NCBI GenBank assembly: GCA_031119295.1
Contig: JAVHYE010000006.1
Coordinates: 1 to 35,402 of the forward strand
Length of the DNA: 35,402 bases
Direction: 5' to 3'
Origin: Pedobacter sp.
GTDB taxonomy: Bacteria; Pseudomonadota; Gammaproteobacteria; Pseudomonadales; Moraxellaceae
The notes under the pieces were generated by a model. It was not told the origin of the DNA. It did no database searches and was given only the letters and a program-made list of their open reading frames with translations. Of this stretch, positions 8,101 through 12,020 are shown piece after piece. Made by a program: the position numbers and the translations under genes. Position 1 is the first letter of the stretch; the number at the start of each line of letters is the position of its first letter.

Positions 8101-9087
8101 ATGGCAGACAATCCCTGGGGCTCTTCTTCATCAACTCCGTCAACGCCGCCGCGCGGCCGCGAATGGGAGCTGCTGGAAAACGTGGTCATGGCCTCGGTGC
8201 AGGAGCAGCGCCGCGCGCGTCGCTGGGGCATCTTTTTCAAGCTGCTCACCTTTCTTTATATCGCTTTGGTGATCTGGATGATTTTCGGTGCCAGCAAGGT
8301 CGAGAAGGCCGCGATTGCCGGCAGCCACACGGCGGTGGTGAATGTCACGGGTGAAATTTCCGACAGCAGTGATGCCAGTGCCGAAGCCATCATTGCCGGC
8401 CTGCAGGCGGCTTTCGAGGCGCCCAAGAGCAAGGCTGTGGTCTTGCGTATCAACAGCCCCGGCGGCAGTCCCGTGCAATCGGCTTATGTCTATGACGAAA
8501 TCCGTCGTCTGCGCGCCGAGCACAAGGACAAGAAGCTGTATGCCGTGATTACCGACATGGGCGCCAGCGGCGCCTATTACATTGCCTCGGCGGCCGACCA
8601 GATCTATGTGAACCAGGGCAGTCTGGTGGGCTCCATCGGCGTCATCATGCAGGGCTTTGGCGTGCAGGGTCTGATGCAGAAGCTGGGTGTGGAAGACCGC
8701 ACCATGACGGCGGGTGAGCACAAGGCCATCATGAGCCCCTTCGAGCCTTTGAAGCCGGAAGAAAAAGCACATGTAAAGAGCGTGCTGGATGCCGTGCACC
8801 AGCAATTCATTGCAGCCGTGCGCCAGGGTCGTGGCCAGCGTCTCAAGGAAAATCCCGATATTTTCAGCGGCCTGTTCTGGACCGGCCAGCAGGCGGTGGA
8901 GCTGGGTCTGGCTGATGGTTTTGGCTCGGTGGACTCCGTGGCGCGTACCGTCATTGGGGCAGAAGAGACGGTGGATTACAGCGAGCTGCCTGATCCCATG
9001 ACGGCGGTGTTGCGCAAACTCGGTGCCAGCATGGGCGAGGCGGTGGCGGCACGCGTGGCGCCGGCCCAGGGCATGCAGTTGCGCTGA
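8101..9087 (+). CDS. sppA: SppA-type signal peptide peptidase (S49 family)
   Basis: This 328-residue protein is the short, single-domain SppA form. A Pro/Ser-rich cytoplasmic N terminus is followed by one transmembrane segment (FFKLLTFLYIALVIWMIF, about residues 45-62) and then a periplasmic S49 protease domain. DMGASGAYYIASAAD gives the nucleophile Ser156, and TAGEHKAIMSPF gives the general-base Lys208. The 52-residue Ser-Lys spacing equals that of Bacillus SppA (Ser147/Lys199). RINSPGGSP is also typical. The family degrades cleaved signal peptides in the membrane. AAGGAG lies before the ATG with good spacing. The gene follows the HAD gene by 69 bases and ends at a strong terminator. Confidence 0.9.
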   Translation: MADNPWGSSSSTPSTPPRGREWELLENVVMASVQEQRRARRWGIFFKLLTFLYIALVIWMIFGASKVEKAAIAGSHTAVVNVTGEISDSSDASAEAIIAGLQAAFEAPKSKAVVLRINSPGGSPVQSAYVYDEIRRLRAEHKDKKLYAVITDMGASGAYYIASAADQIYVNQGSLVGSIGVIMQGFGVQGLMQKLGVEDRTMTAGEHKAIMSPFEPLKPEEKAHVKSVLDAVHQQFIAAVRQGRGQRLKENPDIFSGLFWTGQQAVELGLADGFGSVDSVARTVIGAEETVDYSELPDPMTAVLRKLGASMGEAVAARVAPAQGMQLR

Positions 9088-9106
9088 ACGGAAATCCGGC
9101 ATCAAT

Positions 9107-9134
9107 AAAAAAGCGGCCAGATGGCCGCTTTTTT
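9107..9134. terminator. Bidirectional intrinsic terminator after sppA
   Basis: The perfect inverted repeat aaaaaagcggcc / ggccgctttttt with an AGAT loop gives a hairpin with a U-run in either direction. It ends sppA (+) and also the small minus-strand gene that stops at 9155. Confidence 0.93.
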
Positions 9135-9154
9135 ATGCGCGTGATTTTCTGCGG

Positions 9155-9397
9155 TTAGTGGCCCGGGCTGGGTTGCGAGGTGCGGCTTTCGCGATTGAGT
9201 TCGCGCAGCAGGTCGCGCAGGGCCAGTGCCAGGAATATCAGGCCGGCCAGTGCAATGACGATCACCAGGGGTTTGCCCGCCACATTGTTTTGCAGCTGGG
9301 TCAGCACCAGAAACAGGGCGGTAAAGAGGGCGACGACAATAAGGCCTATGCGCAGCAGGATAAGGGTGGCGGTATTGGCAGAGGGATTGTGGCTCAT
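9155..9397 (-). CDS. Small two-helix membrane protein, unknown function
   Basis: The start is taken as ATG at 9397 (MSHNPSANT), because a very good ribosome-binding site (AAAAGGAGC, 5 bases upstream) fits it. The track version starting at 9460 has none. The 80-residue product has two predicted membrane helices, about residues 9-30 (LILLRIGLIVVALFTALFLVL) and 40-58 (PLVIVIALAGLIFLALALRDLL), joined by a short LQNNVAGK loop. It ends with a charged, Pro-containing tail. I recognise no family. It lies downstream of yceF on the same strand after 115 bases, tail-to-tail with sppA, which acts in the membrane, but a functional link is not shown. Confidence 0.7.
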   Translation of the reverse strand: MSHNPSANTATLILLRIGLIVVALFTALFLVLTQLQNNVAGKPLVIVIALAGLIFLALALRDLLRELNRESRTSQPSPGH

Positions 9398-9512
9398 GAT
9401 GCTCCTTTTGATGAGGCCGGTGGATGCATCAAGCCTAAGCGTGATGCATGGCGGGCTCATGAAAGGTGCGTGACGACTTGAACAAGTCTTCTTGCGGCAA
9501 ACAGCTTTCTAT

Positions 9513-10103
9513 TCAAGGAATCTGCAGTCCTTCGGTCTGCAGCATGTCTACCAGCGCCATCAGTGGCAGGCCGATCAGGGTATTGGGGTCGCGCCCGGAA
9601 AACTCCCGGAACAGGCTGATGCCCAGGCCTTCGGCCATGAAGCTGCCGGCACAGCCATAAGGTTGCTCGGCCTGCAGATAGCGCTCTATGGCGGCATCCG
9701 TCAGGGTCCGGAAGCTCACGGTATAGGTTTCCACGGTCAGTTGGTGGCGGCCACTGCCGGTATTGAGCAGGCAGAGCCCGGTATGGAAGGTGACGGTACG
9801 ACCGGAAAGCCTCTGCAACTGCGCTACGGCCTTGGCGTGGTTGCCGGGTTTGCCCAGGATTTCGTCGTCCAGGCTCAGGGTCTGGTCGGAGCCGATGATG
9901 AGGTGATCAGGGTGTCGGCTGGCCAGGGCCCGGGCCTTGGCTTCGCTGAGGCGGCCCGCCAGGGCAGCCACGGTCTCGCCGGGTCGGGGGCTTTCATCTA
10001 TATCCGGGCTCTCGTGCCGGAAGGGCAGGCCGAGGCGGCCCAGCAGTTGCCGTCTGGCCGGGGAGGAGGAGGCGAGAAGCAGGGGCAGGGCTGTAGCGGA
10101 CAT
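9513..10103 (-). CDS. yceF: Maf/YceF-family nucleoside triphosphate pyrophosphatase
   Basis: The start is ATG at 10103 (MSATALPLLLASSSPARRQLL); the extra 26 residues in the track lie in the divergent promoter region. The Maf signature SSSPARRQLL, GSDQTL, SFRTLTD and GCAGSFMAEGLG are all present. Maf proteins are cytoplasmic house-cleaning enzymes that hydrolyse modified NTPs to NMP and PPi. The YceF branch prefers 7-methyl-GTP. I assign YceF over YhdE because the gene is divergent from yceD-rpmF-plsX exactly as in E. coli and Pseudomonas. The length of 196 residues is normal. Confidence 0.9.
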   Translation of the reverse strand: MSATALPLLLASSSPARRQLLGRLGLPFRHESPDIDESPRPGETVAALAGRLSEAKARALASRHPDHLIIGSDQTLSLDDEILGKPGNHAKAVAQLQRLSGRTVTFHTGLCLLNTGSGRHQLTVETYTVSFRTLTDAAIERYLQAEQPYGCAGSFMAEGLGISLFREFSGRDPNTLIGLPLMALVDMLQTEGLQIP

Positions 10104-10161
10104 AATCGGGTGTGGCCGGGGAAGAGGGCGCCAGAGTACCTGAAATACAAGGACTTTTCTT

Positions 10162-10190
10162 TTGACAGCCGGGGGGCGCATACGTATGAT
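10162..10190 (+). promoter_or_regulatory. Strong sigma70 promoter for yceD-rpmF-plsX
   Basis: TTGACA (perfect -35), exactly 17 bp, then TATGAT (5/6 match to the -10 consensus). Transcription should start near 10197, only about three bases before the yceD ATG at 10200, so the mRNA would be practically leaderless. No Shine-Dalgarno is visible before that ATG. Confidence 0.88.
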
Positions 10191-10199
10191 CGCGCGCCT

Positions 10200-10739
10200 A
10201 TGTCAACCGGCGCCCTGCCTCAGTACATCGACGCCCAGAAATGGGCTGACCGTGAAGCGGTGATCAATCAGGTCATTCCGCTCTCCGGCTTTGTGCGTTT
10301 GTGCGAGGGTGCGGCCAGCAACGAAGGTGAAGTCAGCGTCAATGTGCGCATCCATCGTGATGCCCAGGGCCTCTTTGTTGTTGATGGTGAAATGTCCACG
10401 CAAGTGGCGCTGGTTTGCCAGCGTTGTCTTGAGCCGGTCATGACGCCGATTGATGCTTCCGTGCAGCTTTGGCTTTTGCGTGATGAGAGCGTGGCCGATC
10501 GCCTGCCGGATGATGCGGATTATCTGGTGCTGGACGAGGAAGGCCGTATCTCCCTCGCTGATGCACTGGAAGATGAGCTGATACTGGCTCTGCCTTTGGT
10601 AGCGGCGCATGACGATTGCGAAGCTTATCAATTGCAGGCTGGTGAAATTGCCGAGGTGGATGATGAAGAGCCACCGAAGCGCGAAAATCCTTTTCAGGTG
10701 CTCGCCGGTCTCAAGACCGATGACACTAAAAAGTCGTAA
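10200..10739 (+). CDS. yceD: YceD (DUF177), 23S rRNA accumulation/ribosome-associated protein
   Basis: The real start is the ATG at 10200 (MSTGALPQYIDAQKW); the track ORF from 9492 runs back through yceF and is not plausible. The 179-residue protein has the DUF177 hallmarks: LVCQRCLEP, the acidic DEEGRISLADALEDELILALPLVAAHDDC segment and the NPFQVLAGLK end. YceD is conserved with rpmF in bacteria and plants and has been linked to 23S rRNA accumulation; its biochemical role is still unclear. It is the first gene of the rpmF-plsX-fab transcription unit. The near-zero leader from the consensus promoter is unusual for this family. Confidence 0.9.
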   Translation: MSTGALPQYIDAQKWADREAVINQVIPLSGFVRLCEGAASNEGEVSVNVRIHRDAQGLFVVDGEMSTQVALVCQRCLEPVMTPIDASVQLWLLRDESVADRLPDDADYLVLDEEGRISLADALEDELILALPLVAAHDDCEAYQLQAGEIAEVDDEEPPKRENPFQVLAGLKTDDTKKS

Positions 10740-10772
10740 CTGATTAACGTTTAATTTGTGCCGGAGTAAATC

Positions 10773-10955
10773 ATGGCCGTTCAACAGAATCGCAAAAGCC
10801 GTTCCCGTCGTGACATGCGTCGTTCGCACGATGCACTGACCGGCCCCACGCTGTCCGTGGATCAGGAATCCGGTGAGACCCATCTGCGTCACCACGTGAC
10901 CAAGGATGGCCTGTATCGCGGCCGTCAGCTGTTCGCGAGCAAAGACGCCGAATAA
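10773..10955 (+). CDS. rpmF: 50S ribosomal protein L32
   Basis: This 60-residue basic protein, [22 protein letters not shown], is the classic L32, a small protein of the large ribosomal subunit near the peptide exit. It keeps the [11 protein letters not shown] terminus and the [11 protein letters not shown] segment. It is the zinc-free type, because the paired CxxC of some L32 paralogues is absent. GGAG lies just before the ATG. It sits 33 bases after yceD and 12 before plsX, the conserved yceD-rpmF-plsX order that couples ribosome and lipid synthesis genes. Confidence 0.98.
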
Positions 10956-10967
10956 GCCGACGACTCC

Positions 10968-12020
10968 ATGAGTGTCGTTGCTATCGCTGTCGATGCCATG
11001 GGCGGGGACTTCGGTCCCCGCGTCACGGTTCCCGCCTCGCTGGCGGTGCTGCGTGAAACGCCTTCCCTTCGCCTCTCTCTGGTAGGCGACGAAGCCCAGA
11101 TCACTCCCTTCCTCTCGCGTCTTTCGACGTCGGAGCGCGGGCGCGTGTCTGTCGTGCACACCGATGAAGTCGTCACCATGGACGACAAAGTCGCTGTTGC
11201 CCTGCGTAACAAGAAAAAATCCTCCATGCGCCTGGCCATCAACCTCGTGCATGAAAAATCCGTTGATGCCTGCATCTCGGCCGGTAATACCGGCGCCCTC
11301 ATGGCCATCAGCCGTTTCGTGCTGAAAACCCATGCTGATATCGATAGACCTGCCATTCTCGCCACGCTGCCGGCCATGACCGGGCATGTGCATATGCTGG
11401 ATCTCGGCGCCAATGTGGACTCCGAGCCGCAGCATCTGCTGCAGTTTGCGCAGATGGGCTCCATCGTGGCGGAAGTGCTGGATGGCATTGAGCGCCCGCG
11501 CGTGGGTCTGCTCAATATCGGCGAAGAAGACATCAAGGGTAACGATCTCATCAAGCAGACGGATGCCTTGCTGAAAAACTCCGGCCTCAATTACATCGGT
11601 TATGTCGAAGGCGATGGCGTCTTCAAGGGTCATGCCGATGTCGTGGTTTGCGACGGCTTTGTTGGCAATGTCGCGCTCAAGGCCTCGGAAGGTGTGGCCA
11701 AGATGATGGCCGGCATGATCAAGGAAGAGATCAAGCGTAACTGGCTGACCAAAATTACCGGTGCTCTGGCGTTTCCGATCTGGAAGGGCCTCAAGCACCA
11801 GATGGACCCGGGCCGCTATAACGGCGCCAGCCTGGTGGGCCTTACCGGCATCGTGGTGAAAAGCCATGGCAGTGCCGATATCTTTTCATTTGCGCATGCC
11901 TTGCGCGTTGCCATCACGGAAGTGGAAAAAAATGTACCGGCGCTGATTCATGCCCGTCTAGGGCGTGATGAGGCTCATGACGAGCCGGCCGTGGTTGAGG
12001 GCGCTCCACAGAGCGTTTGA
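10968..12020 (+). CDS. plsX: Phosphate acyltransferase PlsX
   Basis: PlsX transfers acyl groups from acyl-ACP to inorganic phosphate, making acyl-phosphate for PlsY in the first step of phospholipid synthesis. It is a peripheral membrane enzyme. The N terminus AIAVDAMGGDFGP and the ISAGNTGALM motif near residue 104 are diagnostic. EEDIKGNDLIK, VEGDGVF and VCDGFVGNVALK follow in the usual order. The 350-residue length is normal. It starts 12 bases after rpmF. About 80 bases separate it from fabD, and no fabH gene lies between them, unlike in E. coli. Confidence 0.97.
   Translation: MSVVAIAVDAMGGDFGPRVTVPASLAVLRETPSLRLSLVGDEAQITPFLSRLSTSERGRVSVVHTDEVVTMDDKVAVALRNKKKSSMRLAINLVHEKSVDACISAGNTGALMAISRFVLKTHADIDRPAILATLPAMTGHVHMLDLGANVDSEPQHLLQFAQMGSIVAEVLDGIERPRVGLLNIGEEDIKGNDLIKQTDALLKNSGLNYIGYVEGDGVFKGHADVVVCDGFVGNVALKASEGVAKMMAGMIKEEIKRNWLTKITGALAFPIWKGLKHQMDPGRYNGASLVGLTGIVVKSHGSADIFSFAHALRVAITEVEKNVPALIHARLGRDEAHDEPAVVEGAPQSV

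Follow-up and report, generated by a model that had tools for sequence, protein, structure and literature searches.

A putatively stringent promoter joined directly to the start codon of yceD predicts a leaderless first gene ahead of rpmF in most Gammaproteobacteria sampled

In the stretch of DNA analysed here (the window, 35,402 nucleotides), the yceD operon very probably begins with a stringent-type promoter that is fused to the yceD start codon, and carries a leaderless, weakly translated yceD before an rpmF gene that is strongly driven by a Shine-Dalgarno (SD) sequence. Sequence comparison indicates that this fused promoter-start architecture is neither local nor a product of chance. The operon runs in the order yceD, rpmF (L32), plsX and then fab genes, and an intergenic region of 96 nt separates it from the divergent maf gene (Table 1). 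The assignment of yceD is secure, with a match to the PF02620 profile of 78.8 bits against a curated cut-off of 33.2. YceD is a 23S rRNA accumulation factor that functions in ribosome assembly, and its operon is essential and joins ribosome and lipid functions. In Gammaproteobacteria, leaderless mRNAs are regarded as rare curiosities, known from phages, transposons and a small number of genes. The first gene of the yceD operon appears to have stayed leaderless in most of the class, E. coli included. This operon, which ties lipid synthesis to ribosome assembly and a ribosomal protein, would offer a conserved, housekeeping and genetically tractable case for studying why leaderless initiation persists.

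Table 1. Features of the yceD promoter and the surrounding genes, in window coordinates.
Feature	Position	Strand	Basis or remark
-35 hexamer TTGACA of the yceD promoter	10162..10167	+	Sequence; comparison with 78 aligned gammaproteobacterial promoters
Spacer, 17 nt, poorly conserved	10168..10184	+	~0-0.5 bits per column
-10 hexamer TATGAT	10185..10190	+	Sequence and alignment
GC-rich discriminator CGCGCGCCT, spanning the entire gap from -10 to start codon; rrn-P1-like, putatively stringent-type	10191..10199	+	
Predicted transcription start	10196..10200	+	Most likely A10200, for a leader of 0 nt; alternatively G10196, for a leader of 4 nt
yceD (PF02620), first gene, predicted leaderless, no SD	10200..10739	+	Pfam E 4.3e-22
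rpmF (ribosomal protein L32), second gene, strong SD (GGAG)	10773..10955	+	TIGR01031
plsX (phosphate acyltransferase), third gene	10968..12020	+	TIGR00182 E 1.1e-109
maf-family pyrophosphatase, divergent neighbour	9513..10103	-	PF02545 E 8.1e-52; likely start 10103

The hexamers of the yceD promoter match the consensus at 11 of 12 positions, and the -10 element ends 9 nt 5' of the ATG. Promoters were called by simple consensus scoring, and the scan of positions 9000-12000 yielded this promoter as the sole sigma70-type match, with no second promoter of 9/12 or better found in that interval. Because dinucleotide shuffles yield ~1.1 such matches per 3 kb, the hexamers by themselves are not significant; significance comes from where the promoter lies and from its conservation. 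A search of the 3.14-Mb assembly, a draft that is 87% complete, for the pattern TTGACA-N16..18-TANNAT-N7..11-ATG gave a single match, at yceD. The same search in nine other genomes gave one to three matches in eight and none in the ninth, with the yceD site included in seven of the eight. The original prediction had described a TTGACA-17-TATGAT promoter and no SD at yceD. Its coordinates are confirmed, and the 20 nt upstream of yceD form an anti-SD duplex with an energy of +0.6 kcal/mol, compared with -6.1 kcal/mol for rpmF. Further 5' of the -35 hexamer, positions 10144-10152 hold a short ATACAATGG/ATACAAGG-like stretch that recurs within the genus and could be part of the promoter of the divergent maf gene.

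Comparison of the same gap in related genomes, which the original prediction had proposed as a check, revealed that the arrangement extends across the class. For this comparison the yceD starts were picked without regard to promoters, as the in-frame ATG closest to where the Pfam match would place the start, and a promoter was scored as abutting if it matched the consensus at 9/12 positions or more and ended 5-13 nt upstream of that start. An abutting promoter is present in 124 of 146 gammaproteobacterial genomes, compared with ~1.1 expected from dinucleotide shuffles. The 124 comprise 24/30 genomes from the window's family, a fraction that is biased upward because these 30 loci are the best-scoring relatives, together with 40/45 from elsewhere in the order, 59/70 from elsewhere in the class, and E. 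coli MG1655. Kinship was allowed for solely by counting families, and 78 of 91 families have the abutting promoter. Control genes in the same loci almost never do (rpmF, 0/139; plsX, 2/111), and outside the class no abutting yceD promoter was found in 27 genomes. Three or more of the genomes scored as lacking it (among them L012, L138 and L148) seem to have had the wrong start assigned, since an ATG does directly follow the promoter there. Orthologues from the genus, family and order share the block TTTTGACA-N17-TATNAT-NGCGCGC[CT]T-ATG. A chance arrangement is ruled out by the counts over genomes and families and by the single genome-wide pattern match, and a quirk local to the genus is ruled out because the arrangement is class-wide. 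SD strength follows the same division, with median anti-SD duplex energies in Gammaproteobacteria near 0 for yceD and -6 to -7 kcal/mol for rpmF in the same loci, and a good SD (median -6.0 kcal/mol) before yceD outside the class. The leaderless reading of yceD put forward in the original prediction is well supported by these comparisons.

The discriminator was examined in an alignment of 78 gammaproteobacterial yceD promoters with a spacer of 17 nt and 9 nt to the ATG. In this set TTGAC(A) is nearly invariant, and a T lies immediately 5' of the -35 element in 99% of promoters. The discriminator consensus is NGCGCGC[CT]T, with ~0.8-1.8 bits in most columns from positions 2-9 compared with ~0-0.5 in the spacer, and it is the best-conserved untranslated part after the hexamers. 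Pairwise differences within the genus amount to 47% in the spacer, 6% in the discriminator and 0% in the -35 element. Counting from the end of the -10 element, positions 7-9 are pyrimidines in ~99% of the 78 promoters, and position 10 is the A of the ATG, with a T immediately 5' of it in 97%. The pyrimidines at positions 7-9 leave this A as the most favourable initiator: it is the sole pyrimidine-preceded purine at positions 6-10 in 28 of the 78, and an additional G is found at position 6 in 49. Position 10 is mostly still a purine (A or G) in relatives where the ATG has shifted downstream (genera g5, g8, g10, g12, g13 and g15). From these bases we infer a yceD leader of 0-4 nt, with +1 at the A of the AUG and the G at position 6 (4 nt) as the alternative. 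Transcription had originally been predicted to start about three bases before the ATG. That figure of three reflects a generic 7-nt rule. Positions 7-9 in the window are C, C and T, so A10200 or G10196, the only pyrimidine-preceded purines 6-10 nt after the -10 element, is likelier, and with both the leader is at most 4 nt.

Based on this architecture, we infer a 5'-AUG mRNA, translation of yceD that is low compared with rpmF, and sensitivity to ppGpp/DksA. In this process, sigma70 RNA polymerase would begin transcription with the first base of the AUG, or 4 nt before it, in a manner like that at rrnB P1. The GC discriminator would lead to an unstable open complex, which would cause operon transcription to drop with ppGpp/DksA, in step with rRNA. 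With its AUG at the 5' end of the mRNA, yceD would be translated inefficiently, through leaderless initiation of the 5'-AUG, 70S type, and rpmF on the same mRNA would use its strong SD, so that a single transcript could supply little YceD and much L32. General work on leaderless mRNAs suggests that the response of yceD to initiation factors and 70S pools would be altered. In rrnB P1, a GC discriminator is combined with a start 9 nt from the -10 element, an alternative start three bases upstream, and sensitivity to ppGpp/DksA (PMC7822876). Both promoters have a GC-rich discriminator directly 3' of the -10 element, and the start predicted for yceD would, like that of rrnB P1, lie ~9-10 nt from this element. 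The yceD promoter is unlike rrnB P1 in its near-perfect -35 element, its 9-nt discriminator (8 nt in rrnB P1) and its product, a predicted leaderless mRNA. A leaderless first gene that dampens translation within an operon, as proposed for yceD, has a likeness in acuR, which is reported to be transcribed as strongly as the downstream genes and translated less (cited in PMC3293720). However, acuR encodes a regulator and belongs to a catabolic operon of Alphaproteobacteria, whereas yceD encodes a ribosome-assembly factor and the arrangement is class-wide.

The same anatomy would be expected if only the promoter, with its GC discriminator and start site, were conserved, the placement of the ATG being a historical accident and leaderless translation having no selected role. 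This alternative differs from the fused architecture described above solely on what is selected, and we consider it plausible, if short of probable. It draws on genomes that keep the discriminator without leaderlessness. In genus g12 the promoter and discriminator are kept, ATT or a similar codon replaces the ATG, and a new start lies ~30 nt downstream. In f185 genomes outside the class (L197, L201, L203 and L205-L208), TTGACC-16-GATAAT-GCGCGCCTG, with a GCGCGC discriminator, is followed by a GGAGG leader and an SD-led yceD, perhaps an ancestral leadered form or a parallel one. Within the window's family the fusion is absent from genera g7, g9, g11 and g12, and perhaps g3, and is therefore not indispensable; in several g9 genomes a GAGG lies 6-9 nt 5' of the yceD ATG, and at least some g11 genomes have AGGA before it. 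The g12, g9, g11 and f185 cases indicate that discriminator and leaderlessness are separable, and that an SD can arise upon loss of the fusion. Although an SD leader can be gained in this way, the ATG stays 7-13 nt from the -10 element in the 124/146 genomes and 78/91 families counted above, which argues against a placement by accident. The fourth base of the coding sequence (position 10203 in the window) argues in the same direction, being T in 87/124 leaderless cases compared with 7/49 others. Codon 2 of leaderless yceD is mainly TCN, TTT or TTR. Bacterial genes generally prefer A as the fourth base (PMC5850271), and the T in yceD possibly reflects selection on the first bases transcribed or on the 5' terminus of the mRNA. 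A bolder proposal is that the leaderlessness of yceD is itself selected class-wide. Translation that prefers intact 70S ribosomes would gate the synthesis of this 23S rRNA accumulation factor and the rRNA-type discriminator would gate its transcription, in a two-level feedback between ribosome content and 50S assembly that contrasts with the strongly SD-led L32 on the same mRNA. We offer this proposal tentatively and rate it as somewhat unlikely.

A less probable alternative, and in our judgement an improbable one, is that the promoter is real but yceD is translated mainly from longer transcripts that begin farther upstream, through a non-SD leader, with the ultra-short form serving rpmF and plsX only. 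E. coli provides the grounds for it: two yceD promoters are credited there, so a leadered transcript could coexist, and the gap also encodes sraB just 5' of yceD. Against it, the window has no other promoter in the interval scanned and the divergent maf gene leaves only the short gap noted above, no SD is kept 5' of the gammaproteobacterial yceD ATG, and discriminator and ATG are conserved as a single block. The E. coli yceD-rpmF(-plsX-fab) operon resembles the window in gene order and in the fusion, with TTGACT-17-TAATAT-GCGCGCCCT-ATG and 9 nt between the -10 element and the ATG. It differs in its weaker hexamers (9/12), its second credited promoter and a longer intergenic gap that holds sraB. 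The sraB small RNA (L062:1190-1358) is encoded on the same strand as yceD, between maf(yceF) and yceD, and its 3' limit is beside the promoter, 36 nt 5' of the yceD ATG.

The fused, leaderless reading of yceD also finds an echo in the E. coli literature. Ribosome profiling placed yceD-rpmF among the unequally translated operons, with yceD less efficiently translated than rpmF and described, in a passing remark, as having no 5' leader (PMC4378010). Leaderless mRNAs are a known kind that is rare in E. coli (PMC4681348, PMC3415461, PMC9031893). Only five have been mapped there (dicA, pgpA, racR, rhlB and ymfK), and the absence of yceD from this list counts against a leaderless yceD (PMC4681348). 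The original prediction called leaderless translation uncommon in Gammaproteobacteria, which holds for mRNAs generally, as the five mapped cases illustrate, but fails for yceD, where the arrangement is a class-wide rule that includes E. coli. Of the five, pgpA and rhlB are ordinary chromosomal genes with a leader of <10 nt (PMC4681348), as predicted for yceD; yceD differs from them in having an rrn-like discriminator and in leading an operon that includes a gene for a ribosomal protein. Apart from the passing E. coli remark (PMC4378010), no earlier report of a class-wide leaderless yceD, or of an rrn-like discriminator fused to an ATG, was found in the open papers searched. Within these papers, how deeply the arrangement is conserved and how the yceD discriminator is built seem unreported, and a leaderless yceD in E. 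coli has already been mentioned.

A start of yceD at ATG 10200, as originally predicted, is well supported by the comparisons. This ATG is the only canonical start before codon 21, and the orthologues are conserved from codon 6 onward, with differences mainly at third positions; within the genus, codons 6-22 differ at 83 third, 32 second and 16 first positions. Translation from a downstream codon with a normal leader, for which GTG 10260 is present as a candidate, is extremely improbable and is contradicted by this codon conservation, since codons 6-20 are conserved as protein and no in-frame ATG, GTG or TTG, nor any good SD, lies between codons 1 and 21. An upstream in-frame start was also rejected: the frame is open far upstream but is not conserved there, and the stretch from promoter to ATG contains no start codon. 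When cases are anchored on the promoter instead, the codon at positions 10-12 after the -10 element is ATG in 80 of 118; GTG and TTG are never found there. In L051 and L131, two relatives from the order, the ATG next to the promoter now opens a tiny upstream ORF (ATG ACA ACC AAC CCG TGA in L051, ATG TAG in L131), and the true yceD start follows downstream.
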